Part shown: piece by piece, positions 17,301 through 47,870 of the stretch | How positions within the stretch are numbered: the stretch's first letter is position 1 | Layout of the letters: every line of letters begins with the position of its first letter | Assembly (NCBI GenBank): GCA_030141605.1 | Contig: JAQGDQ010000021.1 | Location: 620,001 to 684,000 of the forward strand | DNA length: 64,000 nt | Reading direction: 5' to 3' | DNA from: Tubiluchus corallicola | Taxonomy: Eukaryota > Priapulida > Priapulimorpha > Priapulimorphida > Tubiluchidae | The notes under the pieces: model-generated | Told to the model about the DNA's origin: nothing | The model's database searches: none | Seen by the model: the letters and a program-made list of their open reading frames with translations, nothing else | Position numbers and translations under genes: made by a program

Positions 17301-20300
17301 ACTGCCACCTCCAAATATGGTTAGTAAACCCTATCATGCCAATACAAATTACTGAATGCAGGGCAGCAATGATTATCTAAACTAAAATGCAAAGACGCAA
17401 TCATTATTAGTATTCATTACAATCAAAGTCCAAACTGTATCTTATCTTTTGATATAATGGACAAATGACCAAATTTTAAGTAACATGCCATTTAAAAAAT
17501 ATAGTTAGTTAGGCATTAAAACTGAAAGTACAATAAATGTAAATGATAGATTTTATATAAGCAAACATCACCATTTGACATTATTGATGGCTAAATTGAA
17601 TAGCTACAAGCTACTGCAATAGTAACAATACTTACCATGTCTTGTTTTTTACTTTAATCTCTTCTGGGGAAAAGTCAATCTTTTTTATTGCTTGCCTAGG
17701 TTTATTTTCAAAGAGTACTATCAGTTAAAACAGAAAAAATGGCCAGGACTTTATCATTAGCAGCTGGTGTAGGTTGTTTTATCATGGCCATACCTCCCGC
17801 TCTCATTGGAATAGTTGCTGCATCAACAGGTAATAATAACATTTCTAGCATTCTTGCTTGAGTAAGTAAGACTCTAATGATAGTAAAATGGTGCAATATG
17901 AGCTTATTGTTAGTCTTATCAATAATTACAAAATAAGATCATTATGCATAAATCAAAGCAGGTTGATTCCCTGCTACTAGTATTCGATACAGAAATGTAG
18001 ACTGCTCAACTATACCCGAGACAGCACTTGACCCACTATTACCCTGCCTATACTCGACAATTTAAGCAGTTTGTTAGAAAAAACAGTTATACCACTTTTA
18101 AAATGTTCGCTACGGTATTTATTCCCGAGACAGAGTTGTACACCATAGAGCCTTACTTATATACCACAATTAACTTCGTGTCAATTGTTAATGTTTAATT
18201 GAGTGTTAATAGGCTTGCTTCGGTTTGCTCGAAACAAATCTCATTCGAAATTTATGAGGTGATACTGCCCAGCTGCCCAAAAAGAATATGAACCCAACAG
18301 TCAGCCATCCATTCACTGACCAGGCTTGGCGATGCTTAACTTCAATTACCAAACACAAACAGTAGCCCATCCACTGGGTTACTCACCAAAATTCATTTTG
18401 AAAGATATTTGTGGTAAACTCTGTCAACACATTCATGAAAGATTATATTTTCTTTTGTTTAGACTTTAACTTAACAGATTATGGAGAGCCTCAGGACCAA
18501 TCCATAATTTTACCTGTTGTTCTAAAGTACCTGACACCAGTATGGGTTTCATTTATTGGCTTGGGAGCAGTGTCAGCAGCAGTAATGTCTTCTTCCGATT
18601 CTTCAATACTCAGTGCAAGTTCGATGTTTGCAAGAAATATTTACAAACTTATTTTTAGACAACAGGCAAGTTGTCTGGCTGAGTCTTTCAAAAATTTATT
18701 TCCATGCAGTGGCTAGATTTGTATTTGACTTTGATACTAAAATGTTCCTTGAGCAAGGTTAATTTGTAAGCAGCAACAAAGTTGGGTTGCCAGCTAGAAT
18801 TACAAGTTAAATAATCTAAAGAACTTTTTTTCTCTTACTCATGCTTATTATCTACATGCTTTAAATCAACTTACTTGTAAAGGAGTCCACTATTTTGAGC
18901 TCATTTTTACATGACCTTTAAAAGAATCATAATTAACTACTTACTCTGGTTGGTTACATGTAAATTTTTGTATTACATGTTTTAGAATTTAGCACAGATC
19001 TAATAGTAACCATTTCATAAAAAATGTATTAATTTTTAGGCAACAGAAAAAGAGATACTGTGGGTGATGAGAGCAGCAATCTTTGGTGTTGGTGCTATGG
19101 CAACGGTAATGGGCATCTCCATTAATACGATCTACGGATTGTGGTATCTTTGTGCTGACTTAGTTTACGTTGTGCTATTTCCTCAGTTATTTTGTGTGAC
19201 TTACATCAGCTTTACAAATACATATGGTTCTCTGTTCGCTTATGTTGCAGGATTAGTGCTGCGAATTCTCAGTGGTGAGCCAATCATACATTTGACAGAA
19301 GCAATAAGGTATCCTCTGTATGACGAAGAGAATGATATGCAAAAATTTCCATTTCGTACGTTGATCATGGTGATCTCATTCGTGTGTATTATAACGGTTT
19401 CTCTATTCACAAACTGGTTGTTCCAGGGTGGAATTATGCCAGCAGAATATGACATATTTAAGTGTTTTGTTGAGAAAGAAATTGAACAGCGTACGAAAGC
19501 AGATGAAACAAATGAAGAGTACAGACTTTTAGCTACAGCAAGCAATGACAATCTGAAAATGTTTGTAATAAACAAGGACATTAATGCAAATAATATTAAT
19601 AGCAAAAATAATGATGCAGTTGCTTATGACACAATTTATCTATGATTTATTATATTTCATGAATATAAATGCTGTATGTGTATCTTTACAACAAAAGTTG
19701 TCCACGCATATACATGTACATATATATACTGACATTGTTATATTTTGCATGTGTTCTGCTTTGTCGTGCAAAGACAATAATTAGATTAACATTTCTAAGG
19801 GAATGCACAGTTAATACATCTGTGCTTATTTAAATTTAGAATTGATGTCAATTGCTCAAGGTTCAATACACTCATTACATTTTCCATAAATCAATGCCTT
19901 TTCTGCACAAACTCAAAATGGTTCTGTGATAAGAATACATTTATTCTCTAACGTATATTTAATTATTGAAAACTCTTTAAAGGTAGAAATTTTAGAGTTG
20001 CTAAGTGCAACGGTTTTTGCTGTTTGCTGAGTACTTCATGAAACAAACATAATCTTATTTATCAACTGTTCAGCAGGTTATGACATTATGATCTTTGATC
20101 TTAATGCACAGAAGTAATTAAACAGTTATAGATACTTAGGAGATTGGTTGTTTGCCATAGTGTCATTGATATGATATCACTTGATCAAAGCAGGGTAACC
20201 ATATTTATTTGTTACTGTGTATCGCTGAGCAGCAACGAGCTCCACAAGAAAACAAAATATATAATTTAGCAGATCAGAAACAATTTGTGTGATGTAAATT

Positions 20301-23300: not shown

Positions 23301-26300
23301 TAATTTACTATTACCACGAAAGATATTAATGCCAATAAGGGAAGCAGCTAAGTTTAGTTCTTTAAAGAAATCACTTGGACAATTAAAAACTGCTTTTAAT
23401 CAAACTTTCATCATCCCTGTGTTCAAGTATACTCTCTCTTCACCTTTTATCGTTTTCTCGCTGCTGCACTCACCCTCTCACTGCATTTCCTGTCTCTCTA
23501 TTCTCTTTTTCTCTCCCTCTCTCTTAAAAACCCTACCAGCGAGTTCATAACTCCAGAAGGCATGCAGGGTAGACCCGTAGTCTCTCACACTTCTTCACAA
23601 TAAATGCACTATGACATTGTATTTTAGGCATATTTTCAACGAGTTTTATCTGCAAATAGTCCATCAAAGGCTAGAATATTATCTATTACTGCTGGTGTCG
23701 GATGCTTGCTATTAGCTGTCCCTCCTGCACTAATTGGATCAATAGCGGCAACCACTGGTAAGTTAAGCCAAAATGCTTCACTCACTGCTCCATAACAACA
23801 ACTCATTATTGAAGTAATCAAGAAATTTTGTTGAAAATGTGTACATGTTTCACAAATTGTCCAGACGATATACTTTCATTACTAACACAAAGTAAAAGCA
23901 TTTCAGTTTTCACACTTTTCTGATCCAGACTGGAATATGACGCAATACGGAGAACCAGTGGATCCCTCACTGATTCTTCCTTTGGTACTACAGTATTTGA
24001 CTCCATCATGGGTAGCATTTTTCGGTTTAGGAGCCGTTTCTGCTGCAGTTATGTCGTCATCTGATTCATCAATGCTCAGCTCAAGCTCAATGTTTGCAAG
24101 GAATGTATATAAACTGATCTACCGACAAAAGGTTTGAATTATTTTACTTAATGGTCAGTTGTTTAGCTTGTTCAAGATCGGATGGCATCTAGCATAAAAG
24201 TGATGGCATCTAATAGAGACCAAGAAGCCACATATTTGAAACTACTGTCAACATGATTACTGTTAATTAGCTTTGGTCATGTATGCCAACAATTAGTAAA
24301 TTGAGAATTTATGTACAGTGTTAGTTTTCCTTCTATTCATTTCTATAATGTAAATAAATAAATGAATAAATAAATATAACTGAGCATATATATATATTTA
24401 TATTTATTTATTTATTTACATTATAGAAATATATATATATTTCAGACTTGCTTCATATATCACATCATGCCATCCTGTTCCACATCAAATGTGCAGTTAG
24501 TACTAACTAGTGGAACATAAAACAATTATGCTTGTAATGTTGAATGCTTAACATCATCTGACAGCTATTCTTTATTGTGTCATTTACATATTCCAGGCAT
24601 CAGAAAGAGAAATACTTTGGGTAATGCGAATCGCTATCTTTGGGGCTGGTGTAACAGCAAGCATTCTCGGCATTACAGTGGATTCTATTTACGGACTATT
24701 TTGCCTGTGCTCAGATTTAGTATATGTTGTGCTCTTTCCACAGTTAGTTGCAGTAATTTATATAGACTTTTCTAACACATACGGATCTTTATTCGCTTAT
24801 GTTGTTGGAATGACATTAAGGATTCTCAGCGGTGAACCAATCATCAATCTGCCTGCAGTGATAAAATATCCATTATACAATGAAGACTTGAATGTTCAGC
24901 GCATTCCTTACCGGACGTTAATAATGCTCATTTCCTTCTCCTCTTTGATTATTGTTTCTAGTTTTACCAAGTGGATTTTTGAACGAAGGCTGATTTCCCA
25001 AAAATATGACTTATTTCATTGCTTTAGAGATTCATACAAAAGTGCTGTTACTTGCACTGATGAAAGTGTTGCAATGTCAGGAAAAACAACGTCGTCGGGC
25101 CTAGTCCACTTTGAACCCACGATACCCACAAAAACATCTCAGAATAATATAAATAAATATAACAATTTTTGCAAACAAAACAGCTACGAAGAATTGAAGG
25201 CACTGACAGTGTATAAGAATAACAAATTTCTAAAGTCTGAGAATGATACAACAAGTATGTTGTAACCTGAACACTTGCACTGTATATATGTAATAATATT
25301 GACCAATTTTCCAGTTAACAAACCACAATACATTAGTCTATTGTAACAGCTGCTTTTATGTTCTTGCAGTTAAGCTGAATTAAGTTTCAACACTTTTGTG
25401 GACTCTTGTTTTTGTCTTACACGCATGTCTTTAAATGACGTTCTTTGTTGTTGATAGATGGTACCAATTTGGTGGAACATTTTTAATAATTGGCATACAT
25501 ATACTAGCTAGACATTGTAGGCTTATTCCTGCATTTCTGCTTGTACCAGTTACTGTACTTAGAGTTTCACACTAATTGGACTTATTGAGTTTAAATTTAC
25601 ATGTTTATTTATCACCAAGCCAGAAACATGTAAATAGTACTGTGAACTCTGCTTATAATAAATAAGTTGCTATAAGACGTTTGTAAAACTGATGCACATG
25701 AATCAGCCTATGCACAATTAAGGACTAGAAAAAAACACATATAATGGCTGTGGCCATTGTAACAAACGCATAACCATTATAGCAAAAATTGTTTTTTCTT
25801 TTTATCTTTTTAGTCTAATATTAAATGCTCTATTAAAGTTAATCAGCATTGAAAGGAATGGAAAAAAATTTAGGAATTAGGTTTGATGAAACAGGATCAG
25901 TAACTACATAATACCACTGAAATATTTGTAAACAACTTAGTCCCAAGAACAACCTTCTTACTAAAGTTAAAGTATTTTAGTCAGGTACTTTAGAATTTGG
26001 TAAAGCACATCAACTAGAACAATATGTGCAAGAAAGTATGATACAGCAAACAGCATGACAGGTAACACTGTTAGTTTATAAAATTGACTCTCTTTAGCAA
26101 AAGAAGCAACAAGCAACATGATGGTCTTGTGGTTTAGCTCAAAATGCCGCATGTGAAGTGTTTTAATTGATGATTATAAGTCTTAAACAAAGTACTTCTG
26201 ACACCAGCAATAAGATATAAACTATGATAGAGAAAAATAGACTAACAGAACATAAGTCAGTTAGTGAATATGACTATGCTCATGATTATGACATGCAGTA

Positions 26301-30701: not shown

Positions 30702-33608
30702 ATGTCTAAAAAGCGTGAACAGGAGCTCCTTGGCAGCGAAGACTCTTTAGTGTTTGCAAAGCCTGCAAAGAAACAAAGACGGTTTAAAGATAAGCATTCC
30801 TTAGACAGTGATGAAGAAGATGAACATGTAGAAAACAATGCACTTGATGAAGATGATATTGAAGGTGATTAATAGACAAGTTTAATTTTTGCTAAATTTT
30901 AAACTAATTTAGTTTAATTTATGTTATACTTTGAATGAGAAATGATAATTTTTAAAAGCTGCATCAGTGAAGCTCTAAAGTCTAAAACATAAATCACTGC
31001 CTGCCAGAGCTAAAATTTCTGAGATACTAAGAATACCAAAAAGCAGAAGGGAATGCAGCTGAAATCACTGATCAGTTTTGTTGCCTTTTCCAATTAGGAG
31101 AATGCAAGTAAGAATAACCTGGTACTATAGTTGGAAATGGTGAACTATAATGCACATCAGGCCTTGTTTATTCTTGTTATTTAGCTTGTTAGTAACTGCT
31201 TATGGAACTTTGTTATTTTAAATAGCTATGGTCTTTATACTGTTTTTCTTTCTTTAGTTAGCAGGTGACATCACTGTGTCAGATTTATGCCTATATATTT
31301 GCAAGCAGCAGAACTCTTGTCAATTGTCTGCAAGAATTACTTTATGCTTTTCATTCACTATTAGATACTGAACAATTTTTCAAACATTAATATAGGAGAA
31401 GAAGAAACAACAATAGAAGATGATGATGGAATAAAGATAACTCCTTTTAACATGCGAGAAGAAATGGAAGAAGGACACTTTGACGCAGAAGGATATTATC
31501 ATTTCCGCAAAGATGCTGAGATTTCGTACGGTTTTTTCTTGGTTTTGTTGTGCAACATTTAAAAAAACAGCTTTTTTGTCAAAAAAATTATTAATCATAC
31601 ACAGTGTTCATTTATTTGCTGCTTAAAATGGCAGATTTATTCGACTTATTAATCAGTCAGGTTAAATTACTTGACGTGATTTCGCTAATGCAAACAAACA
31701 TTTTGACCTTTCAGACTAGGAAGTGTCATATCTTTATAAGTTTTGATTATAATTTTGAAGCCACTTTTTTATTGGTACATGTATAATAGTTTATAGTTTA
31801 ATTAATTGAATGCCTATGCAGAAGTCTTCGCATGTGTCTTTTTTTTGCTATAACTATTTGCTGTCAGTAGGGTATTAGTAGCTGCTCCGTGAATTTTATG
31901 ACACCTAGTGCTGTCTGTCTTTTGCAGAGATGCCTGGATAGACAATATTGACTGGGTAACTGTCAAAAAAGGACAAAAAACGAAAGTAGCCAAATTATCG
32001 AAAGCTGGACACAAAGAAGACATTGATGAAGTAAAGCTTCTACCACTGTTGCTGAAATATATTTGTTGGCTGAAATATATTTGCTGTGAAAATTCAAATT
32101 TAATTATTTTCTGTCATAAGTATCATCTTGTTGAATGTAAGTCTATGCAAGAGTTTTTCAGTGGTACTTATCACTAATGCACCACATAATTTTGAAAAAC
32201 ATTGTATCACCACCATGTTGGTGTTACATATGGGAATGAAGAATGCCCGTATTACTGATAAGAAGGAGGCATAGACTAGAAGAGAACTTGATGTGGCTTT
32301 GCAGCATTAATTTAAAAAAGTTTATAATAAAGTGTATTTAAAAGTTGAAAGTACAAATTCTCAAAATTCGTGTCTCTGGTCTGGAACTAGATCGTTGTTT
32401 GTAAAGCTCTTTTTTATAATAGGATGTAATGGATGGTGACGACTCTTCAAGCGATGAAAGTAATGAACCAGTTAACAAAATAGATTCTTATATGAAAATG
32501 TTGGATATTATTAAGCCAGGCGAGACTGTAGCAAAAGCAATGCGACGACTTGGTGGTGGTACAAAGGGACGATCAAGTGCAAGTAGTCGTTGGAAAAAGG
32601 GAAATATGCAGAGTACTGAAACTGAAGAAAGTGCAAGAGACAGTGCTGATTTAGATAAGTTGACTGCATTTGCTGACGAGTTACTTGCTGCAGGAGAGTA
32701 TGATATTTATCAGGCGACTTACGAGAAACTTAAGCATCATATTGACGAGAGTAAAAAAACTGTTACATCAGGAACAGCAGATAATGATGATGTTTTGGAC
32801 ATGTTTGCTGATGATATTGATCAAAGTACTTTGACTAAAGCAACTGCAAAAAGTCAAATGGATGAACAAACTAGACTGGATGGTGGTAAGTTTTATAAGT
32901 GTTGTGTTTTACTTACAAACTTTCCAGGAATTCTTGGGTAACGAAGTTAATTACAGTGGACCAGCAGGTCAAAGCAAACCATTCGGCTTGCATAACTAGG
33001 GTATGCTAAACGTTCCTGCTTACAAACAAAATGGGACTTAACATGATTGTTTCTATGTATATTATAGGACAAAAGCCAACTAAGATGATATAAGAGTCAT
33101 AAACGCTTATTAGTCACATGAACAGTGTCTTATTGAAGCATGTAAAGGAAAAATATTGAGTCAATTATGCGGAGCTATTTGAGTCAATTATCGATAGTTT
33201 TTATGTACATTTGAATAGAAGCGGCCCGTACTAGGCGTTTTTGAGTCAATTAAGCGACGCCTACTGTACGTGTCCCAGTTGTATGGCAATTTTTATGTCT
33301 AGAACAATGCAGATGATTCTTTGCTAGTCGTAAATTGCAATTAAGGCAGTTCTGCTAGTACTATCTACAGTTTCTTAAATATTTTAGATATTGTTGAGCC
33401 ATCTCAAGTCAGTGAAGTTTGCTGGGAGTTTAAATGGGAGGACAAGCTGGAAGCACCTATTAGTGGACCACACAGCAGCACACAAATGCATAAATGGGTT
33501 GAGGAGGGCAAATTTCCAAATGGTGTTTATGTACGTAAAGTTGGTACAGAAACGGACGCAGCATTTTACTCTTCGAGACGAATAGATTTCGAGTTATATA
33601 CGGACTGA
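30702..33608 (+). CDS. CD2BP2: CD2BP2 / U5-52K-like GYF-domain protein
   Basis: Exons 30702-30864, 31396-31525, 31928-32030, 32423-32885, 33388-33608; 1080 nt, 359 residues (human 341). Shared features with human CD2BP2 include KHSLDSDEEDE, ITPFNMREEMEEGHFDAEG, DAWIDNIDWV, ETVAKAMRRLGGG, LDMFADDI and a C-terminal GYF domain (about residues 297-356) ending RRIDFELYTD. The human protein is a U5 snRNP component that binds the 15K protein and proline-rich ligands and leaves before tri-snRNP action. The GYF signature is altered: GPF is G313-P314-H315 and GYF is G327-K328-F329, while M320 and W323 are kept. An acceptor-like site (ttattcag) ends 6 bases before the start codon. Intron 4 (32886-33387) contains a truncated MITE. 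Confidence 0.93.
32926..33266 (+). mobile_element. Truncated pogo-like MITE, right end
   Basis: About 340 bases align with the right-hand part of the complete element at 62112-62958. It ends in the same terminal inverted repeat (CGACGCCTACTG) followed by TA. The left terminus is missing. It occupies most of CD2BP2 intron 4. Confidence 0.8.
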
Positions 33609-36600
33609 AACTATTGATTACTTTTTTTATTGTGTATAGTGTTACTTGATATATTACAAGGTTACTCTGCAATGCAAATTGCCTATTGATATGGTCATTT
33701 GCATGACAAATTCCTGTTTTGGCAGTGTTCTGCCTTTGTGAAAAAAAACACATTCGGGTTGGAGGAGCCATTGGTAATGTGTCATTGTATAAAAAAATCT
33801 TTAGTGTCTGTGTGCTCATTCAGTTAACATTTTGCCAGTTTTCTGTAAGGCTCTTTCAGGACATAGTTGTTGTGCTACCTTAACTAAACTTTTTAATTTT
33901 TATATATGTTTACTTGACTGCTTTTAGTATTATGAAAAGATTAAATTGTTACGCGTTCTACACGTACTGTCTGGTGTCGAAGTGTGGGGTCGAAGCGAGG
34001 TGATAAAATGCATTCAAGTAAAATTGTCTGTTGTTGTAAATATTTGTACTGTACAGAACAAAAAAAGAAAACATAATAAGAAACTACAGTTCACTTTTCG
34101 AATTAGAACAAGCCTTTATGTTCTCTGTCCAAAAGACTGTATTAAGCTTAATAGGGCTACTAAATCTAAGAAAAAGGTTAGTAAATATTTTTGTGATGCT
34201 AATTATGTTCCTAATTTTAATATTTTCACTCACACGTGCAAGTAGAATTGAGACAATAGCCACACGAGTACTTTTCAGAAAAAATGACGTAATTTAACAC
34301 GATTATTTTCTCCCAAATTCCACAGTAGCTGATTGATCATTCAAAACTAAGATTTTTATTAAATTTGCTCTTAACTTTTGACACGAATGCAGCGCAAGCC
34401 AAGCGAGGCCGAAAACTTGTTCTTGTTGTTTGAGGTGACATATATGAGTATGTACAGAAAACTCTGAAATATTAGGCCATCTGTTGTTGCATAAACAAAT
34501 TTTGCAACAACTTACTATGACATTCAGTAAATGGAAGTGGCCCAAGATTTGAAATATAGCACTATCTGCACCGATTACGTCTTCCTTCTCACTGGCTGGC
34601 AATAGCGACTGACTAGAACAGGGGAAATAAGAAAAAATTAATGATTCGGCACCTGCCATTGAAAATATTGTTATTGATTTAGATGTAATTATCACAGGTG
34701 CCCTTTGCTTCATCCGCTGGTTGTTTTTAGAGGGCTTCTTTGTAAAATTCATTGTAACGATTTATTTACTGTGTAAATAAAATTAGTACTACCACCACTA
34801 CTACCGTGCATTTGTATTACTTACACCCACTTTTGATTTACTTTAAGGTTTGTAGTTTCACCATTTTAATAAGAAAAGTCAAAGGTGTTCAAAAAATAGT
34901 AAACTTTATTTTTACAAAATTTAACACTATTACAACAATAGTGAATAAATTAATAAGTCCAAAATTTAATATCGAATTCTGTACATTAATAATCACTTTC
35001 AAATTATGTCTGCAGCAAATTACAAACTGGAATCCTGCAAGTATTACCCGCAAGCAGGATATCCTACTGGCAAGTACCCTACTGATTCATAAATCACAAA
35101 AAATACATTTACATCCATCAATAAACTGTTTGCAAAAACAAATTCAAACTGCAAAGAGAACAACGGCAATTCGGGTTACTACAGCAACATGTGGGATTGT
35201 GATAACCTACGATGTTCAGACTAGTTTTTTAATGGCAAGGTTTACAATTTTCAAAGAAATTTCAACTATTTGTCAATTACATTGCTTTGCAAGGTATGCT
35301 ACCGTTACCATTTCTGCAATGTTTCAAGATACTTCTAACTAACTTTGGAATATTGCACGGCATGCGTAGACCGGTGTTAAATACACACAATTTAAAACTA
35401 ATAACTAATACAATTTAATTCAAGTGCTTTAAAGAATAGAGTATTTAAATTATTGAACTACAAGTATTTCATATCACATTTTATTAAACAGGGGAAGGCA
35501 TACCTTAAATTGCTGGCATAATGCTAATTTTCCATGGTTACTATAAACTTGCTAGTTATTAAGTAATAATACTACATGTCTGACTAACTAGTCAATGTCA
35601 ATGTAAATATGCACCTAGCAAAGAAAGGTGGGCCTAAATGAAAGATAAAAGGTTAACAAAACAGATAACAGAATGTCTGCATATAGTACAAAATTTAAGC
35701 CTACGAACTACCTATTGTAGGCACAATTTTTTTCCAAAGTCACACATGTATTCAAAGACATTCAGAAAGCAAGACAATGCAAACCTATATAGTAAACACA
35801 ATCTGTCAAAAGCGAATATGTGACCAAAGGCACTGATTAAAACCTGAGCTTATTGCTTTTCATTATAACAGTGTATTTACTCAGAGCCATTTCAGTTTTC
35901 AGTACAAAACTTTGATATGTCTTTGAAACTACTACAGTACAATTTTATTGCCAGTGTATTGGCAGATTTCTTCTATTGCCAGGACACGACTACGACTTTT
36001 TATGAAAAGAAAGTAGATAAACAGAAATATTCACTTTTATTATCTTAAATGAGTAATTTAAATGATGTGCACCTATGTTATCATGCAACTCATTAACAAT
36101 ATGGAGTAGTGAACACTATGATTACTTAAGTCTTTACAGTAAAATCAAAATATCCTTTTAATCTACAATTACTTGCCATTTGTATTAAAGTTTCATTAAT
36201 TGTAGTTCATAAAGAATATAAATGTTACAGTACATGCAGCAGAGGCAGAAAATCTTACAAATGTCCCAAGGGCATAAGTTGAGAACTTTATTAAGTAGTG
36301 AACTTTTAGCCCTGCAGATTGGCCGGGCTCGTAAGGTTAGCAGTATTGCTGCAAAAATCAATATATCTTATCTTCAGGCAGGCATAAAATAACCTATACT
36401 GCACATGCACATACAATAACACCTGGACGTTCAGCTGCAGCCAAGTTATTGAGTACAACGCAATACGTAGGAACAAATTGCATTGTAGGCAGGCGCGCGG
36501 AAAAACTGCTACCTCAAGCAATAATTACGTTGTAACTTTGATGAATATTAGAATTCGGAACAGTTTTGTCATTTTTGCTAATAAAGAGAGGAAAACACAA

Positions 36601-36765
36601 ACTTTTTAATGACAAAATTTTGAAAAAACACTTAAGAAAAAATTTTCTGCGAAGTGTCCCGCAAATATTTTCCAGCCCTGATGTGGTACTGTAGTTTAGA
36701 ATTTTTTAAAAAAGAAGTAACAGTAGTTTGTAAATTTAAAACATACAAAATGCTTCTGTAATGAT
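33609..36765. other. Interval between convergent CD2BP2 and the XRCC1-NTD gene
   Basis: No exon recognised. It must contain both 3' UTRs. Candidate - strand poly(A) signals (TTTATT on +) lie at 36287-36292, 36036-36041 and 34905-34910, and a + strand AATAAA at 34776-34781. Confidence 0.4.
36287..36292 (-). terminator. Nearest candidate poly(A) signal of the XRCC1-NTD gene
   Basis: AATAAA on the - strand about 475 bases past the stop codon. More distal candidates exist. Confidence 0.4.
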
Positions 36766-39700
36766 TTAACTAAAACTCTTTTTGAGCACTTTCATGCAAT
36801 TTCTCCACGTCTTGTCGGATGGGAAATCCGTGCAATACAGCACATGATTCTCCAGATTATCATCAGTTACCTTTTTGCATAATGGGCAGATATCAAGATT
36901 GGTTTGCTTAACTTTATCTGGATGTATCACATTTCTATCACTGAAAATGCTCACTGATGTTGTATTGTTTGAGGCAGTTTGCATGTCTTTAATTGAGCTT
37001 TTAACTGTTGGAGATTGAGTAGTCTCTAATGAGTTAGCACCAGTCGAAGAATTTGTTACTTCTGTTGGGATGTCGGCTATTTCAGGTTCATTGTTCTTCT
37101 GTTTCTGGTTTAGAACTATGTTGGATGGAGGAGAGTCAACAGTTAGATCAATTTCACAGCTAGCAGCATGAGCTTCTACTACAGATGACGGGAAATAACC
37201 TGCAAGTCAAAAACACGTCAGATTAGATACTACACAATGAAAAAATAAATAATAAGAAATGTATTCATTTCAGTGTCCATATTTCTGTAGCAATGATTTA
37301 GTAACATTTTTCAATAGAATATATACTGTTCATTTATGATTTATTTCACAGAAATAAATTACAGAAATATTTCACAGAAATTATTAGCAGTGAAATTGAC
37401 ATTTAATTTTTGGAGTAATGACTCTAGCAATTTTTTTAGAATACAGCAGACACAGACTGAATGTGCATATTAGTTTATATCACGCAAATCTACATTAATT
37501 ATATACGGCAATATGAAGTAAAATCTGCAGAAATTGCATAATCTATAACATCAACTTTTTTGCACTCCAAGGTAAGCGGTATAAAGAAGTTGGATTGTAC
37601 TTGAAGCAGCTGCACAATTGTCAACGTGCAAAAGTGATCATAAGTTATTACAGTTATAAGAGTGTCTAATTAATGCAGACTTGAATACCTCTTGTGGTAG
37701 TAAATAACTCAAAGAGATACCTTGACAGATAGGGCACTCAACTAAGTTGAACAATGTCTCATCATTGGCTTTCTTAAACTTAGGTGGTTTTAACCCAGCA
37801 TCACAGCTGAAAAATAAAGTTTTTTACCACTATAATCTTTTTATGCAAGTATTACATATGACTCTAAAAGCTTTGCAATACCGTGCTTTTACAATTTTGT
37901 CAAAAATTAGTGTTGGTGTCAAGCAATTTAATCTAACATTCTATCATTATTTGTTTTCTTTTCGCATTTTTACAAACATGCATTTCCTGAAACTGTTTAA
38001 AACGAAGCCAGCCTTAGTCATGTGACCTAAGCTTTAGTAGTATACGCCACCTATCAATCACACTTGTTCTTACACGTAGTTACATTTTCTGTTGCCGCTA
38101 TGCTGATCATGCAGTTTGGTGATACTTGCATTGCTTTGTCTATTTTTTTGCAATTTAACAGTCACTAGTTGTATTTTCAAGCCAAAGTTGTCACCAGTAA
38201 ATGTAAGTCACCATCTACTTTAATAATTAGTTAATAGTTTAAATTGGTTAGAATTGCTTCAAATCTCTAGAATCATAAAGTAATAATTTGTGTTTCAGTC
38301 TTCTTAAATCTAACTTTTCATTTTGTCTAAATAGTAATAAGCTTTAGCACATTCTTAAGCACTTTTTGTGATCTGTTATTTTAATAAATTGCAGGTCTAT
38401 CCCACAGTTCAATACTGATTTTTGCCGTTTCTTTGCCTGGACTGGGCGCATCCACAATTAGATCTTTTCAGAAAAAGATCTTTCCATGTTTTGCGAGAGC
38501 TTAATACTTGTCTACGTGTAATCCACGGAGCCATGTTTGTAAAACTGGTTGTTAGCTTTAGCAGACATGCAGAGAAGAAGGCTACACAGTAAAACTATAG
38601 TTAGGTGTTTGTAAACAAAGTTATGGGAACTGAACTACTTTGTATATTAAGTAGAGGCATCTATATGCTCAAACAAGCAGAGACAGCTTGTTTGAGTACA
38701 TAGATGAACTTTCTTTTATTAATAGGTCCCAGTTATTTGCAGCTTTGGTCATAATGCTGAAATTATTAAAATCTTATTGAAATTATTAGCCTTGTGTCCA
38801 TGAACGCTAGATTGAGGAGGATTTTTTAATTTCTTGCCAGTTCTAGACTGGCCATGTCTGCAGCTGAAACGTATGTGACGTGTTTTAGCATTTTATATCT
38901 TAAATCTTTTAATAGAAGTTGTTTTCTTCCCATAATACTGTGAGTGTCTGTATAAACTGACTTGGACTATTTAATATTCACATTGTGAAATTCTCACAAA
39001 CAATGAGTTCCCGAACATCTAATCAAAGTTAATTAATAATCTACCTCAAAATGAACACACCTGGAATAAAGCTCGTCACAGTCCGATGTGGTCTGAGAAA
39101 TAAGTGCCAATTTGCGCTTTTCAGTATTTTTGCGAAATGAACCAGATTTTCTATCACAGTTACCAACGTCGGATTTAGATGTCATTGGGTCCGAGTTTTT
39201 TAGATGTTTCCGAAAATGATCATGGGATGATGATCTAGCAAACTGATTATCACTGATAGGCAATGCCGAAGACAGTGCTGGGTCTGTGTGCCTAAAGTGT
39301 TTTTCATCGAACAAATCTGCTGGTGCAGTGCTGCTATTCTGAGATTTTTCCCAATTATTTGAATCGATAGCTGAGAGATCTTGTTCAACTTGCTCAATCA
39401 AAACCGGGTTTAAGCTTTGTTTAGAAGTGCTGGCAAACTGGCTTAACTTGGGACACTTTGACAACGAAGACGAAGGTTTTGTGGAAGCCACTAGGGACTT
39501 TATACAACTATGTTCCAAAAATACTTTATTTTCTAAGGTTGTTGTAGAATGTGTTTTAGCTGCAAAGGATGACAGCAATTTGTTCGCTGGCCAAGAAACA
39601 AGAACGTTCTCAATAGTGTCTGCTTGTGTTTTCACAGCACTACCCTTTACATTTGGCATATTGGAAGGAGTTAATTCAACAGCACCTGAACAGCTTCTAA

Positions 39701-42700
39701 TTGTGCTGGATGCAATCTCCGTGTTTTTTGAACCTGGCAAAACTGGAAATGGCAATCTGTTTGTATTTGATATAACAGCACTGTTTTCCAAACTTGATGA
39801 AACTATACATAGGGGCCTGCTAGTTGTTACAGGCACACTCAGTGAAGTAGGCCTTGATACCCCAGTTTCCATACTGCACAAGGACAACAATTTCTTCTTC
39901 AATGGCACAGCAGTAAGTTTGTCTTCTGTTGGTGGAATATCTGACAAAGTCATAATTGGTGGCCTGATAATTGCACTGGGCACACACCCTCTACTTTTTG
40001 AACCTGATGAAGCTGAAAATGGTGAGCCTGCAATTTTGTCAGATGCATGACGAATTTTCTCTCCTGAAGAACCTGTTACTTCAACTACCGAAGGTGAACT
40101 ATTCTGTAGTGATTTGGATATTGTAGAACTTGCTCCAAGACTGCTTACAGTAAATTCATTAGCTGTTGATGGAATACCTGCTGAAGCGGAACCTGGTGAT
40201 TCAGTAATTCTATTGGGTTCATTTGTCAAGCCTGATAAGGGAGACCTTGATGTTCCAGTATCTTTATTGCTCACAGACAGCAATTTCTTCTCGAATGACG
40301 CAGCAGTAAATTCGTCTATTGTTGTAGCTAGAACTGGTGATCCAATAATTTTGTCAATGACATTTTCTGATGAAGATACTTCAACTACAGATGGCAAACT
40401 ATTTCGTTGCAATTTGGATATAAAAGAACTTGCTCTGGGAGTGCTGTTGAATGTTTCTTTTCTGAGATTTGTACTTGCAAGAGACAAACTAAATGCCGGT
40501 GAGGAATCATTGTAATTACTACCGCTAGTAACGATTTCCCTTCCAAGATTTGAAAATATTGTCGTCTTGCTCGTTAATGCTACGTTGAGCAACTGGTCAG
40601 CACCAGAAGAAATTGGAGGTGACAGTATCTGGTCAGTCTTTGCATTAACTGTAGCAAAAGTTTCAACTGCACTGTTGCTTAATCTATTGGCTTCAGGTTC
40701 ATTCGTCATAACATGTGTGCTTTTGACTTGTGTACTATCCATTCTTTGGACAGCACATTCATCAAATAACTCCTTTTCAATCAGATCATCAAATGACTCG
40801 TTAACACAAAGAAGAGCTGCATTTCTCGAGTCCTGCTTTGAATTACTTAGTCCATTTGAAGTGCCAGATACAGAAGAATGGTTGCTATCAATTTGCTCAA
40901 ATTTACCACTAGTTGCACTAACAGCAGTAGGTAAAGTTTCTGATTTGCTCAATGTCGCAGGTGTGTTGTTTTGCATACTTTTGGCAACACAAAAGTCATC
41001 CTTGTGCTTAGGCGTCAATCCACGCCACACATCAGGTAAGTCTTTATTGCCACTAGAATGCTCATGGTTACTAGCACCTGGAAGACTTTGTCTTGGTGAT
41101 GTTGGAATTGGCAGCGCAGAACAATCCTTCACTTTTTTATGAAGCCAAAAATCCACAGACTTTCTAAATCTGACTTTATCCTTACTACTTAGTTTCATTC
41201 CTGTTTTCTTCTCAAACTTGCGGCGTAAATCTAAGATAAAATTTTTTTAGAATTATTAAATGTTTTATAATATAATATATTGCTCATCATTTTGCTCACT
41301 ATTTTAATAATAAAACTCTTCTTCTCTCTCCGTCTTTCTCTCCTCCTTCAAATCTCGCATTTCTGCCACATTTGTAATTCACTAATCAGCTACGACTGAT
41401 GCATTTGTTTAATTGTGAAAAACTCACCTAATAATTTAAAAGCAGATAACAAATACATGCAAATTATCCAGTGAAACTAGATGTTTTGCTCTGCTGAAAA
41501 TATGCATCACCTTGTAGATTTTCTGCCTATTTCATGAGAACATTATTGAGAACTAAAAAATTTGTGGAAATGGTCACAGTGCATGCATTATGTATTGCAA
41601 TTCAACCTAGTTTAAAAATTAAAGTGTTGATTTGCAACGCAATGCCTTCAGAAGACAAGATTGCTGTGATTGCTCTAGTTTAAAACAACGCAATTCTAAA
41701 ACTGGACGTTCAGAAAAGATTCCATATAATGCTTCCACATAACATTTCCATGCTGTTTTAATACACTTTGTTTACATGTGAAAGAATCAACAGAATGTCG
41801 AATGGCAAATGCAGTCAGTACAGATGATACTTACCATACACAGTAACTTGTACCAAATCCATTCCGAATAAATCCAGGCTTCTCAAAAATTCAGAAAATT
41901 CTTCATCCAGCTACAAGAAATGAGTTTCATAAGCTATAATTCAAAGCATACATTTAGCTAACAGCTGTGAAAGTATGAAAAGTGACAGAACTGCAGAAAT
42001 CATGTATATGCAAAAAAAAGTAAAAACCAATTTATCAAAACACCATATCCGTTTATCTGCTTGACTAGGTAGGATGTTCCTGAACTCTGCGCTCAAACAC
42101 AGGAACACACATAAAAAATTGGAAATAAAACCAACAAAAACTAAAAACTAGTAAAAACTAAAGAGTAAAATAAAGCACCATGGTTTCATCTGGCAATCAC
42201 AATCATAATTAATTAGTGAAAAAAAAAGTTATCTAACATTACCTAATATCAGAAACTTACCAACATTTCCACACAACAATGTTCAGTTAAAAAAGCAATT
42301 TCTTTCGATTTCCGTAAAACTTACACTTGCTGAATTTTTGAACCTAATATTCTCAAGACCTTTGTGGCTGCCCACTGCAGCTTGCACCATTCCTCTGGAC
42401 ACCATTGTTCCTTCAAAGTTAGAGTTTGCTTCATTCTCATTGTCACTGCTGTCTCTATAATCATATAACACCCACAGCTTTAGCATTGCTAGTTACTTAG
42501 GCACTTGGTTGATCTGTAATGGTTAGAATTTTAACCCTTACAGGCCGCAGCAAAAACCACTGTAACATGTATACCGAAGCACTGCAATATTATTTACGAA
42601 ATATTAATTAACTAAGGTGTCTTTTTAAACTGAGGCTGACACAGAAAATTTAGTAAAGAGAAACAATACTTACGCATCTGATGATCGCTGCTGTAACCAC

Positions 42701-45700
42701 TTTTGTTTCAGATCAAGCTTAGGTGTGTCAGACTTCACTTGATTTGGTACTACCTGTAGAAGACAAAGCCTCTAAATGTAATTTTATTTTTTATATTTAC
42801 AATCTAAGGTGATTTCTGTTGCATTCAGTAGGTAAAAAAAGTGTCCAAACCAAAGTAAGAACTTAATAAGTGAAAATGTCACAAACTTAAAAAGCTTCAA
42901 TTGTAACAAAAAAACCAAGAATCAGGCAAGTATGGAGTTAAAATCATTTATAACAACTGTATTGTATAGTGAAAACTCTCCATTTTTTAACAAGTAGGTA
43001 ACGATGTCGCCCATTAGAATGTGAAATTAGTAATATATTCTAATTTACTTACAATTGGTAAGCTTGAAGGAGCACAGTCTGTGCTAGACATTTGTTCTGA
43101 AGGGCTATATAATCGTAGAAATGACAAGCCAAATTGTGAGTTGTTCACGCTAAAACTGTGTGGTTGTGAGCAACTGACCTTTATACGATCCCACTTCATT
43201 CCAACTGCTTCAGATAATAATAAGCCTGTTGTAATAAAACAAAAGTAAGTAATCTATCGTGTAAACTGTGACAACTCACTTTGATAGTTAAAGCAGGATA
43301 AACTCTTATCCAGCTTAAGACTATAAGTGACAGGTCTAAACTTGCAGCAGATGCAACTCCATCTTTCCCACAGCAGAGCTGCCAAAAGATAAAGAACTAA
43401 ATGAGTGAGTCTCCACAATTTAGCAAGAGGGTGCATGGCAACGCAGTAAGTTTCCCTACTGGGATGCGGGCCAGAATCCCACTTTGCGACAATGTATTCT
43501 CCTACATTTGAACGTTCCTAAATGTGAGCTAAATTTAAGAATGATAAATTCTTGAATGGGTTATAATAGTTTATTATCTACTTAATATCGAGGAGGTTCA
43601 AATTTTCATTTGAATCACGTGGCATAACCCAATTAAATCTGGCAATTAAAAAAAAAGATTTTCCACTACAAGCATATAATTGTAAAATTACACTTTCTTA
43701 CATTCTCATGTTCTCAATTTACTTTGATCTCAAACATTAAGCCTAAAAATAGGCTTGATCAAAGCCACCTAATAACATTAGGCTGTACTAGTTATTTACT
43801 ATCTGTATTCAGCATATAATCAAAGAAACGTGGTTTCTGACTAGAGTGTAGCACATGTAATGGATGAAAATAATGCTTCATAATTATCTAACAGTGCCTG
43901 ATTTCGTTCAACTGCTGCTAGCCTGAAGTAAGACAATATTCAATCAAGGAAAACATTAAGAACGTGTCTTTAATACCTTGCTCAATGAAAGATAATGGCT
44001 GTGGATGAAAAGTGGAAAATACAAGTGCCAATTAAGCGATTTACATTCTAAAACGAGTTTCATTGACGTGTATTTCATCAAACCATAACTGATTATTAGT
44101 GGAAAAGCAAAGAAAAAAATCAGCACCCAATATAAAATGTGTGAGTTTTGCAGTTTTACTTATATGGGGGTGTGAAAACGTGACAAGCTACAAAGTGTCA
44201 GTGTCAAGCGCAATGCATGAAGCTTGGCAAGTCTGTCTACAAGGCTTAATGGAGAAAGCTAACTCCGTCTTCCCACAATCCGAGCCAAACGTTGTGCAGC
44301 ATCAAGCACTGCAAGAATTAGCCACTCTGTGGTTGGTAAATTCTTGTATTACCCGATGCTGTACTGCATCTGGGTTGTATACACATTAATTCAGTACAAA
44401 CTCAACTCAAGCTGTGTCGCCTATATTTTTTTTGTTACTGAGAGTGATAAGTGACAAAGTAGTACTGTACTGAACCACAGTGCAGTGCATCAATCAAAGA
44501 GTGACCAGCACACCTAACAGGACACTTAACATTTCATGCACACAAAAACAAACCTTGTTATTTAAAGTCCTACCTTTTGAGAACATTTTCGCGTTAAACC
44601 TTTTCTTGCCGGCTCTGCTGTCCTGGGGTGTCATGAGGCTAAATGCCGGCAGAAGGCACTGATAGATGGATGGAGAACTTGACCTCCCTACCATAATCTC
44701 CACCAATGCAGTTCCGTAATTACCTAAATGCAAATCAGTAAACGTTTTTGCTACATTATCTTTTTCTTTAGTAAAACCATCTGTTAGGTAAATTACTTTC
44801 ACTGCTGTAACAATAAAAATTATATAGCGAGAACAAATTATTCATTAGTTAAATTCACTATCTAGTTTATTAGACTATGACTGGCTACCAATGGATAGCT
44901 GTAGCACACACATGGGACTCTTTTTGTTTCAAATCAATGTATTGTTATAATTCATTTGTCTTAGAACTGCCTGCTCAATGATACATCCACTCAATGAAGT
45001 CCTACATTTACCTAAACACTTGCTACATTTGCAGTTACATTTACATTAAAATTAAAGGGGGTATAGTTTTTTAGCAAAGGGTCTTCGTAGTCAGTATTGA
45101 TAACAATTGAGATGTCTATGGAAACAATAACACTGATAAACAATCTTAGCAGTTGTCACAAAAGACCGGTTAAATGTAATTATATAAAGTATAAAATTTG
45201 ATAATGTTAACACCTTTCTGAAATCTCCCTATAATGCTGAGCCAGCACACCTAATACTATAAATCAATAATAGTGTATTTGCTTTACTACTGCTGACTAT
45301 AAGCGAGATAGTACGCAAATTGTCGAAACATATGAAATGCACAGACTTTGAACTGGCAAAAGAAACACAGCTTATTTTCATGCTGTAGAACACACAGTAT
45401 TCTAATTTGTCAGACAATGTTATGTACAAATGTTATGACCTATTTCTCAGTCTTGCTCTCTATGTGGCCTTGACAGGTATTTCCCAGTACAGATCACTGT
45501 CTTGCAATAATATCTAATGAACCACAAAACTGCAACATTACAAATCATACTACAGCCAACTACCTTAATAAATAAGTTATACTGGAGCGAGCTTAATGGT
45601 CATTATGCATGACAACTATATTTAACCTTATAATTTGTATGTACCTTTGTTGTGGGTAGCAATCAAAATACTGAAATATCATGACGGTATTAAAGCAACC

Positions 45701-47079
45701 AAAGAAAATGAGTTGGAAAAACAGATGCTAGAGTACTACAACATACTATTACCCTAAGTGAGATTACTGATGCATAAGAGTAAGGTCATACCTATATCAA
45801 TAATTTCTATTTCTTCCTCCTTCTCAAGTTGAAATTCAACTGAAATGCACTTTGGCCGTTCATTTTTGTTGCACAGCCATGGCTTTCCATGGAGCACAGC
45901 CAGCCATGGAGCAGATGTAGAATTTATTAAGTTTTCTGCAGGGAAATTCTCATCCTGCAAATGTAGAGTAAAGTTTTATTGAATTGGGGTAACAAAGAAC
46001 TGCAAACTTGTACAGGAAAACATATGTTCATTACATCGAGTGCTGTACATGCAGAGTAAAGTTTTGTTGAATTAGGGTAACAAAGAACTGCAAACTAGTA
46101 CAGGAAAACATATGTTTACTACATCGAGCACTGTACATAGTTTTACTTTATGCCTAAAATACATTAATGGTTAGTTTGCCATACACCCGATCAAGTGCTA
46201 TTGTATCCATACGCGAACACGGGATACAAACTCTGTTTCAATACCAGGATATTTAGCTCAACAAGATTTTCCTTACACTTATTTAATGCCTTTCAGAACA
46301 ATCTTGAAAATAACTTGATTGTTTCAAATCTAAGCACAAGTTTCAGCAAATATTTGAATTTCACTCATCATTGATGTAAAATGCTGAATGAACACAGAGC
46401 AGCAGTATTTAGCCAGCTAAACCCAAATCATTCATGCCATCCATTTAATGCAAAAGTGAGTTTGAAACGTAGAAAGTCCGACTAGCATCTCGCCCCTAGC
46501 AGGTCCAGGGGGGAGCAAATTATACCTCAGAAATTTTTGTTTTTTTGATTATCAAAAAAATTAAACCAAAAAATAAGGTAATTTAAAACTAATTTTGTGA
46601 TACTACTCTGCTTTCTTATGCTGTTATTGCAGTTCAGTATGATCTGTAAATATACAAAACTCGTCTTTTGTATACATGAAAAAACTCAAACAGCACGAAA
46701 AAATACTTAATTTACAATAATTGCCATACCCTTTGTATAAGTGTAACATACATAGTGAACACTACTATATTATTGAAAGCAGCACTACAGTACTAATTGT
46801 GTTGGGTTTGGTACTGATGGCAAAAGAAGCCAAGTGATTAACAAACTTGCATGTGAAGCTGTGGAATGCGCAAGAACTGAAATTCGATGCGTGTGAGACT
46901 TAAAATGCACTATGTTATATAACCAATGCAGAACTTTATGTCGTCAAATATAGCTACTTATTTCTTCACCAATCCTAAAGCTTAACATTGACATATGACA
47001 AGTACATGTATATTCATGGTATAACTGTTATTACCTGTGAACTGCATGATACAACGTGTGCTATTCGGATTGGCGCCAT
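36766..47079 (-). CDS. XRCC1 N-terminal domain protein with DEK_C-like and tandem UBZ4-like domains (XNDC1-related)
   Basis: Exons in transcript order: 47079-47035, 45954-45792, 44723-44574, 43225-43053, 42753-42674, 42454-42325, 41910-41835, 41230-39061, 37806-37721, 37199-36766; 3507 nt, 1168 residues. Residues 1-163 are an XRCC1-type N-terminal domain: MAPIRIAHVVSCSSQ, AENLINS, FQLEKEEEIEIIDIG, ALVEIMVG, MKWDRIKVSCSQP, FGLSFLRLYSP. About 262-305 resembles DEK_C (TVYDLRRKFEKKTG, KLSSKDK, VDFWL). The huge exon 8 encodes a Ser/Thr-rich, probably disordered stretch with internal repeats. The C-terminus has two C-x2-C-x10/11-H-x3-C fingers (C1020, C1023, H1035, C1039; C1129, C1132, H1143, C1147), the UBZ4 (RAD18-type) spacing. 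No BRCT domain seen. A role in DNA repair or ubiquitin recognition is inference. The longer open frame running past 39061 is intron read-through. Confidence 0.82.
38658..38706. repeat. 21-bp inverted repeat, 7-bp loop
   Basis: Arms 38658-38678 and 38686-38706 (left arm begins CATCTATATGCTCAAACAAG) pair with two mismatches. Located in the intron between exons 8 and 9 of the XRCC1-NTD gene. Confidence 0.9.
39849..40424 (-). repeat. Diverged coding repeats in the XRCC1-NTD protein
   Basis: Translated on the - strand, ISKLQRNSLPSVVEV and ISKSLQNSSPSVVEV occur exactly 100 residues apart, each followed by DKI(I/A)GSP. FTAASFEKKLLSVSNKDTG and LTAVPLKKKLLSLCSMETG form a second repeated pair 131 residues apart. 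This indicates an old internal duplication (residues about 542-733). Confidence 0.75.
45961..46136. repeat. 88-bp tandem duplication, 2 copies
   Basis: Two adjoining units starting at 45961 (ATGTAGAGTAAAGTTTTATT) and 46049 (ATGCAGAGTAAAGTTTTGTT) are nearly identical along their length. Unit 1 starts 7 bases outside the acceptor end of exon 2 of the XRCC1-NTD gene. Confidence 0.9.
46440..46900 (+). repeat. Dispersed repeat family, copy 2
   Basis: Matches copy 1 (1390-2080) through GAAACGTAGAAAG, GCAAATTAT, CAGAAATTTTTG, the TTATTGCAGTTCA block and the terminal TGATGGCAAAAGAAGCCA block. Inside intron 1 of the XRCC1-NTD gene. Confidence 0.75.
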
Positions 47080-47559: not shown

Positions 47560-47870
47560 ATGAAAAATCAAAATTTTTAGTTCACTGTTATTGCAGTTCA
47601 CTATGTTTTATTATTATTATGTTCTTCTGTAAAAATGAAAAAAAGCTCAAAAACATCCAAAAATGCATAGTTTTCAATAATTGTAGTACCCTTTAGTATA
47701 ATATAAATAGTTAGACTCACGAAAGCTACTGTATTATAGAGAGTAGCACTAATTGTGTTGTAACTGGCACTGATGGCAAAGGAAGCCAGGTGATCAACAA
47801 ACTTGCGTGTGAAGTACGTGAGACCTGAAGCTTGATGCGCATATGAAACTTAAAATGGGTATTACACGCC
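47560..47870 (+). repeat. Dispersed repeat family, copy 3 (partial)
   Basis: Starts within the family near GTTATTGCAGTTCACTATG and keeps the same right part: CTCAAAAACATCCAAAAATG, TAGCACTAATTGTGTTG, and TGATGGCAAAGGAAGCCAGG followed by ACAAACTTGC. Lies just upstream of the XRCC1-NTD gene. Confidence 0.75.

Follow-up and report, generated by a model that had tools for sequence, protein, structure and literature searches.

Introduction

The XNDC1/XNDR family is known from vertebrates, in which the TRPC2 locus was split into TRPC2 and the widely expressed XNDR (Frankenberg et al. 2011; PMC3170594). The coding exons of XNDR are exons 2–10, and exons 2–5 encode the more conserved N-terminal region. 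Orthologues were reported in jawed vertebrates, none being detected in lancelet or sea squirt; XNDR and TRPC2 are linked in vertebrates, with chicken and lizard as exceptions, and a role in DNA repair was only guessed from the head domain (accessible text of PMC3170594). XRCC1 binds poly(ADP-ribose) (PAR) on PARP1 by its central BRCT domain (PMC12190888). Residues F67 and V86 belong to its pocket for DNA polymerase beta (Pol beta; PMC6614843), and the V86R change abolishes Pol beta binding (PMC12190888). Ubiquitin and SUMO are both read by SLX4, which features tandem UBZ4 fingers plus SUMO-interacting motifs (SIMs; PMC8599992), and by RAP80, which features a SIM plus ubiquitin-interacting motifs (UIMs; PMC5577459). 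Here we describe a gene of the priapulid Tubiluchus corallicola, located in a stretch of 64,000 nucleotides (hereafter the window; contig JAQGDQ010000021.1 of assembly GCA_030141605.1, positions 620,001 to 684,000), which encodes an XRCC1-type head and, at the far end of the predicted protein, two CCHC fingers and SIM-like motifs.

As judged from the head, the gene is probably a relative of XNDC1/XNDR. We tentatively favour, at slightly under an even chance, an XNDC1/XNDR-type protein whose head would work as that of XRCC1 and whose tail possibly reads ubiquitin and/or SUMO on damaged chromatin. An earlier note on the window had proposed an undescribed factor. This holds for the function, which is dark, and not for the gene, which by its head is a relative of the XNDC1/XNDR gene described in 2011 (PMC3170594).

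Results and Discussion

The XRCC1-type gene

The Pfam family XRCC1_N matches residues 1–158 of the predicted protein over the whole profile (positions 1–148 of 148), scoring 140.2 bits (E 6.7e-41) where 21 would pass the cut-off, and the presence of an XRCC1 N-terminal domain is certain. XRCC1_N is the sole Pfam family above cut-off in the whole protein. The best PDB sequence for the head is the human XRCC1 N-terminal domain (E 3.7e-32), and identity to human XRCC1 is ~48% (73/153 residues in the pairwise alignment, 72/151, or 47.7%, in a three-way alignment). At E values up to 5 Pfam lists no BRCT anywhere in the protein, in a listing from which filters remove most matches above ~0.1. The protein is in this unlike known XRCC1, as had been claimed.

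The coding sequence resides on the minus strand, from an ATG at 47079 to a stop codon ending at 36766, the same interval as had been singled out earlier. It is predicted to include 10 exons and 9 GT-AG introns (219–1348 nt), which give, with no frameshift, 3507 nt, 1168 aa and one stop. The XRCC1-type domain lies in frame with the downstream exons, as the earlier note held. Exon 8 contains 723 open codons, and an open frame of 724 codons has a chance probability of ~3e-23 at the local G+C. The whole is a real-looking ten-exon animal gene, predicted from splice sites and frame. Its features, all on the minus strand, are:

47035..47079, minus strand: exon 1, aa 1–15, MAPIRIAHVVSCSSQ, start of XRCC1_N; donor CAG/GTAATA
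45792..45954, minus strand: exon 2, aa 16–69, XRCC1_N; Pfam and PDB match
44574..44723, minus strand: exon 3, aa 70–119, XRCC1_N; match in the Pfam genome search and PDB match
43053..43225, minus strand: exon 4, aa 120–177, end of XRCC1_N
42674..42753, minus strand: exon 5, aa 178–203, linker; placed by splice sites and frame only
42325..42454, minus strand: exon 6, linker and part of an acidic Ser/Asp cluster; placed by splice sites and frame only
41835..41910, minus strand: exon 7, aa 248–272, first part of a DEK_C-like segment (sub-threshold)
39061..41230, minus strand: exon 8, remaining DEK_C-like segment (to ~aa 305), Ser-rich linker, duplicated unit 506–601/607–732
Within exon 8, minus strand: SIM-like motifs at aa 554 (VVEVSSSE), 654 (VVEVTGSS) and 790 (VELT), from a pattern search
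37721..37806, minus strand: exon 9, KPPKFKKA stretch, then first two Cys of finger 1
36766..37199, minus strand: exon 10, rest of finger 1 (to C1039), SIM-like EIDLTVDSPP (1040–1049), spacer, finger 2 (1129–1147), stop

A protein search of the genome (343.5 Mb) listed nine matches at E 0.001, and all nine correspond to exons 2–10 of the gene itself; exon 1 was unlisted. The gene appears to be single-copy, in a search which also missed the XRCC1 of this genome, so that a diverged copy would escape it.

Paralogy to XRCC1

XRCC1_N exons were found also on a second contig (C1986), which accounts for three of the five genome matches to this family. An exon downstream of them, FSLSGFQNPLRGQLREKALEMGAKYRPDWTKECTHLVY, matches BRCT (PF00533, E 1.2e-6) above the Pfam cut-off, and we take it to be XRCC1 BRCT1. 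Because the same genome carries a separate XRCC1 with BRCT, the window gene is, by sequence, a paralogue of XRCC1, and not the canonical XRCC1 of the animal. The C1986 head is 57.8% identical to human XRCC1 (89/154), and 40.4% to the window gene (61/151). Human residues C12, C20, F67 and V86 are all retained in the C1986 protein; the window protein features at these positions C, P, L and C (C12 kept, C20 changed to Pro, F67 to L76, V86 to C92). The C12/C20 pair of XRCC1 was reportedly described by Cuneo and London in 2010 as a redox switch. The heads differ in exon structure also. That of the C1986 XRCC1 is split into five exons by introns of phase 0, that of the window gene into four, with phases 0, 1, 1 and 0. 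The first introns lie two residues apart (after residue 17 in the C1986 XRCC1, after residue 15 in the window gene) and might be of common origin; the others are at different places.

The window gene could alternatively be a diverged XRCC1, rather than an XNDC1, with its BRCTs lost and no connection to ubiquitin or SUMO. The N-terminal domain is the only strong match in the protein, and the vicinity of the first intron to that of the genome's XRCC1 would suit this view. The genome, however, has its own BRCT-bearing XRCC1, closer to the human protein (57.8% vs 47.7%), and the start of the window protein fits the pattern MAP[VI][KR]I, which matches XNDR. We hold this alternative to be very unlikely.

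Assignment to the XNDC1/XNDR family is supported by the XRCC1_N head without BRCT, by the residues at the N terminus and by the distribution of the head among exons. Primer 2F for tammar XNDR (PMC3170594) translates to MAPVKI, and the window protein starts with MAPIRI; human XRCC1 starts with MPEIRL and the C1986 gene with MPSVKL, in a comparison of six residues only. The head is encoded in both the window gene and XNDR by the first four coding exons, as far as the accessible text on XNDR goes. The window gene has ten coding exons, for 1168 aa, in contrast to the nine (2–10) described there for mammals. The comparison is limited to the head, and the CCHC fingers, the SIM-like motifs and the long linker of the window protein fall outside it. 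No relatives of the head were found among 106 pattern matches in GTDB genome contigs and 141 in IMG/VR contigs.

Two observations fit less well the XRCC1-like and XNDC1-like reading of the head. One is the change of both Pol beta pocket residues, and for this reason the head may bind Pol beta, a polymerase related to it, or a partner of another kind. The other is the location of the TRPC-type sequences, as all five TRP_2 matches of the genome are on other contigs. The linkage of XNDR to TRPC2 gives hence no support to the XNDC1 assignment; it is not treated here as a trait defining the family outside vertebrates.

The CCHC fingers

Two C-x2-C-x10/11-H-x3-C fingers had been noticed earlier at the C-terminal end, and both were found. 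Finger 1, CPICQGYFPSSVVEAHAASC, resides at 1020–1039 (C-P-I-C-x11-H-x3-C), finger 2, CPLCKKVTDDNLENHVLYC, at 1129–1147 (C-P-L-C-x10-H-x3-C). When the C-terminal 173 residues were shuffled 200,000 times, at least one CCHC motif emerged in 70 shuffles, and two in none; judged by this count, the pair is not an accident of spacing.

The likeness to UBZ4 fingers, claimed for both, is good in context for finger 1 and weak for finger 2, and neither reaches a Pfam cut-off. Fingers were scored against profiles made of solved fingers (WRNIP1, RAD18 and a FAN1 stretch, with or without RAP80 fingers 1 and 2), and compared to shuffles in which the zinc ligands were kept fixed, which test the context beyond ligand spacing. 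Against the WRNIP1/RAD18/FAN1 profile finger 1 scores 14.5 bits, a value attained by 1 of 2000 shuffles. The fingers of RAP80 score against the same profile 14.4 and 5.8 bits, and by this measure finger 1 resembles UBZ4 to roughly the same degree as RAP80 finger 1 does. The NCBIfam rad18 model also matches finger 1 (profile positions 180–205, E 0.0074), as the sole family listed. Matches in PDB are weak: RAP80 (E 0.097, not significant), WRNIP1 (0.12) and RAD18 (0.41) make 5 of the 12 matches listed, the other 7 being RING, TRAF, PHD and unrelated chains. The three chains matched by finger 2 (E at least 0.47) were taken as chance. The five-finger profile inclusive of RAP80 gave 23.4 bits for finger 1 (0/2000 shuffles) and 11.1 bits for finger 2 (19/2000), and was set aside as partly circular, RAP80 having been found by finger 1 itself. 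Support fell once RAP80 was removed from the profile, which lowered slightly the odds for a reader function.

In WRNIP1 the beta-loop residues Pro-Val contact ubiquitin Ile44, and Asp37 of the helix contacts Arg42; RAD18 has the same contact residues (PMC4370504). A helix pattern D(-4)-A(0)-L(+3) has been described in FAAP20 (PMC4267625). Both fingers of the window protein keep the Pro and the aliphatic residue of the beta-loop, as C-P-[IL]-C. They share with WRNIP1 and RAD18 the CCHC spacing and the C-P-[VI]-C type of beta-loop, and finger 1 also the Pro before the helix.

A number of observations weigh against ubiquitin reading by these fingers. By alignment, the WRNIP1 Asp37 position is occupied by Ala in finger 1 and by Leu in finger 2, and the FAAP20 pattern, placed by counting from the zinc ligands, reads E-A-E in finger 1 and E-L-T in finger 2. 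With the helix Asp absent and the FAAP20 pattern not kept in full, the fingers are called here UBZ4-like, and not UBZ4 proper. In Pfam, the best match of finger 1 is zf-WRNIP1_ubi at 15.4 bits, below the cut-off of 26.4, with TRAF6_Z2 also among its top matches; finger 2 has as best matches, again below threshold, Pcf11_C and zf-Di19, and not UBZ. Against the WRNIP1/RAD18/FAN1 profile finger 2 scores 5.8 bits, and 77 of 2000 shuffles score as high. A single-sequence AlphaFold2 model of exon 10 forms a beta hairpin where the helix of finger 2 is expected; in this model 80 of the 143 residues have a pLDDT (predicted local distance difference test) value <50, the mean around finger 2 being 74–88, and Foldseek retrieved nothing with it at E 0.001. 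Searching the genome for PF18439 (zf_UBZ) gave one match, on another contig, and did not retrieve the window fingers. The tandem of ubiquitin-binding fingers assumed in the earlier note is weakened by the missing Asp, though the C-P-[IL]-C beta-loop is kept. From these comparisons, ubiquitin binding by finger 1 is plausible; for finger 2 the likeness to UBZ4 is marginal and ubiquitin binding doubtful.

SUMO-interacting-like motifs

The motifs described in this section were overlooked in the earlier note, and are a new addition to it. EIDLTVDSPP (1040–1049) directly follows the last Cys of finger 1, and we take it, with its core IDLTVDS, to be a classical-looking SIM, a class of motif described in general terms in PMC5577459. 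Pattern searches found [VI][DE]LT at 790 and 1041, as many sites being present in 72 of 20,000 shuffles of the whole protein, and [VIL][VIL][DE][VIL][ST] at 554 and 654, as many being present in 361 of 20,000. Such patterns are short and were written after the sequence had been read, so that the shuffle figures flatter them, a further point of caution for a reader tail. Sites 554 and 654 correspond to each other in the two copies of the duplicated linker unit, and are therefore not independent.

A different account of the tail is a real possibility, which we take seriously: the protein would be an XNDC1-family member in which only the head matters, and the CCHC fingers would be structural, or would bind DNA or protein, and would not read ubiquitin. 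The ubiquitin-contacting helix Asp is missing from both fingers, and finger 2, besides its weak score, takes the form of a hairpin in the model. Moreover, the CCHC fingers of RAP80, closest PDB match to finger 1, are not credited with ubiquitin binding in the accessible text of three papers, which credit instead the UIMs and the SIM (PMC4370504, PMC4267625, PMC5577459). Retention in both fingers of the Pro and the aliphatic residue of the C-P-[VIL]-C beta-loop, which contacts ubiquitin, and the SIM-like motif directly abutting finger 1 argue in the opposite direction.

Joining of the head to the fingers

The connection of the head to the fingers needs the ten exons to be joined, and this is a prediction from splice sites and frame, a point to be held against the reader-tail interpretation as well. 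Two genes might have been wrongly joined, one XNDC1-like and ending in or after exon 8, the other a small CCHC-finger gene made by exons 9–10. Read-through of the exon 8 donor (CAG/GTGTGT, by eye the weakest of the nine) meets a stop (frame end 39033). Five AATAAA are found on the minus strand in 35900–39060; the one at 38715 falls within intron 8, and that at 37340 within intron 9. On the other side, phases agree across intron 8 (2 to 2), and this intron, at 1254 nt, does not stand out in length among the nine. Upstream of finger 1 the frame of exon 9 contains no Met as far back as the last stop, and a separate 3' gene could therefore not start within exon 9; an upstream exon was not systematically searched for. 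We regard two joined genes as improbable. The gene may also give rise to a shorter isoform that lacks the fingers.

Linker and DEK_C-like segment

The head is followed by an acidic Ser/Asp cluster, SSDADSSDNENE (aa 201–212, at the junction of exons 5 and 6, ~42425–42690, minus strand), which presumably resembles the CK2 sites of the XRCC1 linker and could be a docking segment phosphorylated by CK2.

The DEK_C-like segment of the earlier note stays below the Pfam threshold. The segment 248–305 scores 14.7 bits against the Pfam DEK_C cut-off of 24.8 (E 0.03 for an excised piece of 66 residues), the next match of the piece being IMS_HHH_1 (E 0.15). DEK_C is not listed by Pfam for the whole protein, and NCBIfam lists nothing for the segment, results which tell against a DEK_C domain in the architecture. 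The one match found in PDB sequences was judged chance; a search of the genome for PF08766 retrieved two other places, the window not being among them. Two helices are modelled confidently, in the part encoded by exon 8 only. Foldseek gave with this model one match, at E 8.5, and nothing at E 0.001. Helical, DEK_C-like segment is a description that suits residues 248–305, as two helices fit DEK_C and many other folds. Failure of profile searches on both DEK_C and UBZ had been set down beforehand as counting against the proposal. The curated Pfam families fail on both; finger 1 is supported otherwise, and half of the objection stands.

The linker (307–995, ~700 residues) contains 18.6% Ser. It had been called repeat-containing, and consists in this respect of one duplicated unit: residues 506–601 and 607–732 align with a self-score of 108, compared to a mean of 58.9 (sd 8.9) and a maximum of 84 in 60 shuffles. 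By this test the duplication is solid.

Comparison with SLX4 and RAP80, and proposed function

The window protein is viewed here as a putative adaptor guided by ubiquitin/SUMO, because no PAR-binding BRCT was detected and motifs like those of SLX4 and RAP80 lie at the far end. In the interpretation favoured above, the gene would encode an ancient XRCC1 paralogue which keeps the N-terminal scaffold domain without a recognisable BRCT. The head might dock a partner of the polymerase beta type, or gapped DNA, as that of XRCC1, by a similar but altered hydrophobic pocket and without the C12–C20 Cys pair. Finger and SIM at the C terminus, with the SIMs of the linker, may recognise damaged chromatin by its ubiquitin and/or SUMO marks. 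An XRCC1-type head would in this way be delivered to breaks by a ubiquitin/SUMO route, replacing the PAR route.

The earlier note had drawn an analogy to SLX4 or FAN1. SLX4 is kept, together with RAP80, and FAN1 was dropped, since the SIMs make the other two better analogues. The likeness to SLX4 is a functional analogy: the window protein is long and scaffold-like, with tandem CCHC fingers and several SIM-like motifs. The UBZ4s of SLX4 are, however, N-terminal, whereas the window fingers are C-terminal, and the BTB, SAP and CCD domains of SLX4 are not reported by Pfam in the window protein. An XRCC1 domain, present in the latter, is not described for SLX4 in the accessible text of PMC8599992. 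RAP80 (UIMC1) has two CCHC fingers of like spacing and similar profile scores, and is the best PDB match of finger 1; both proteins combine a SIM, or SIM-like motif, with an element of the ubiquitin-reader type. The window protein differs from RAP80 in having the XRCC1_N head and a longer gap between the fingers. No UIM is listed for it by Pfam, a search which has little power with a motif of this length.

Searching the genome with RAP80 fingers gave one weak match (E 0.18), judged not to be RAP80; absence of RAP80 is not shown thereby. By eye this match resembles what is presumably a ZC2HC1-type gene.

In the open-licence full texts searched (subscription papers and protein databases lie outside this scope), no paper was found that joins XRCC1 and UBZ4, and none that joins XRCC1 and a ubiquitin-binding zinc finger in an invertebrate. 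Similar proteins may well have been annotated automatically in databases. The XNDC1 family is known, and the architecture made by head, fingers and SIM-like motifs is new to the open-licence literature searched. In a 2026 mouse survey XNDC1 is reported with a vertebral knockout phenotype (fusion of processes) and zero PubMed results (PMC12876460). A non-vertebrate member with reader-type motifs offers a concrete hypothesis for XNDC1, that of an XRCC1-type head steered by ubiquitin/SUMO; if true, single-strand-break scaffolding and ubiquitin/SUMO signalling would be linked in one polypeptide. A broader view, in which animals in general would have in XNDC1 a second scaffold of the XRCC1 type, recruited to damage by ubiquitin and SUMO and not by PAR, with the ancestral reader tail (UBZ4-like finger, adjoining SIM, second finger and SIM-bearing repeats) kept here and lost or trimmed in vertebrates, is speculative and rather unlikely.

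Other sequences in the window and in the genome

Intron 1 carries at its 3' end (45955–46130) a tandem duplicate of an 88-nt unit, the two copies being 89% identical. The proximal copy stops exactly at the exon 2 acceptor; the duplication offers therefore a second AG, a possible decoy. Copies of a dispersed repeat flank exon 1 at both sides (46679–46858 and 47639–47814), and 40 genome matches to this repeat, query included, were scored out of 73 candidates.

Neighbouring stretches on the plus strand at 19040–19642 and 24552–25262 resemble the high-affinity choline transporter (SLC5A7) in its C-terminal part. The match of 24552–25262 in PDB has E 3.1e-33, the likeness of 19040–19642 to it was noted by eye, and Pfam lists neither. 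A CD2BP2-like stretch (32423–32938, plus strand; PDB E 2.6e-7, nothing in Pfam at E 0.01) is convergent with the XRCC1_N gene. Nine other frames of the window gave no Pfam match at E 0.01.

Elsewhere in the genome, the STING ligand-binding domain (PF15009) has 22 matches, on 10 contigs (C460, C818, C235, C2160 and others). Several are in local clusters, some of them being exons of one gene, and the number of matches suggests that the STING family is expanded in this genome.

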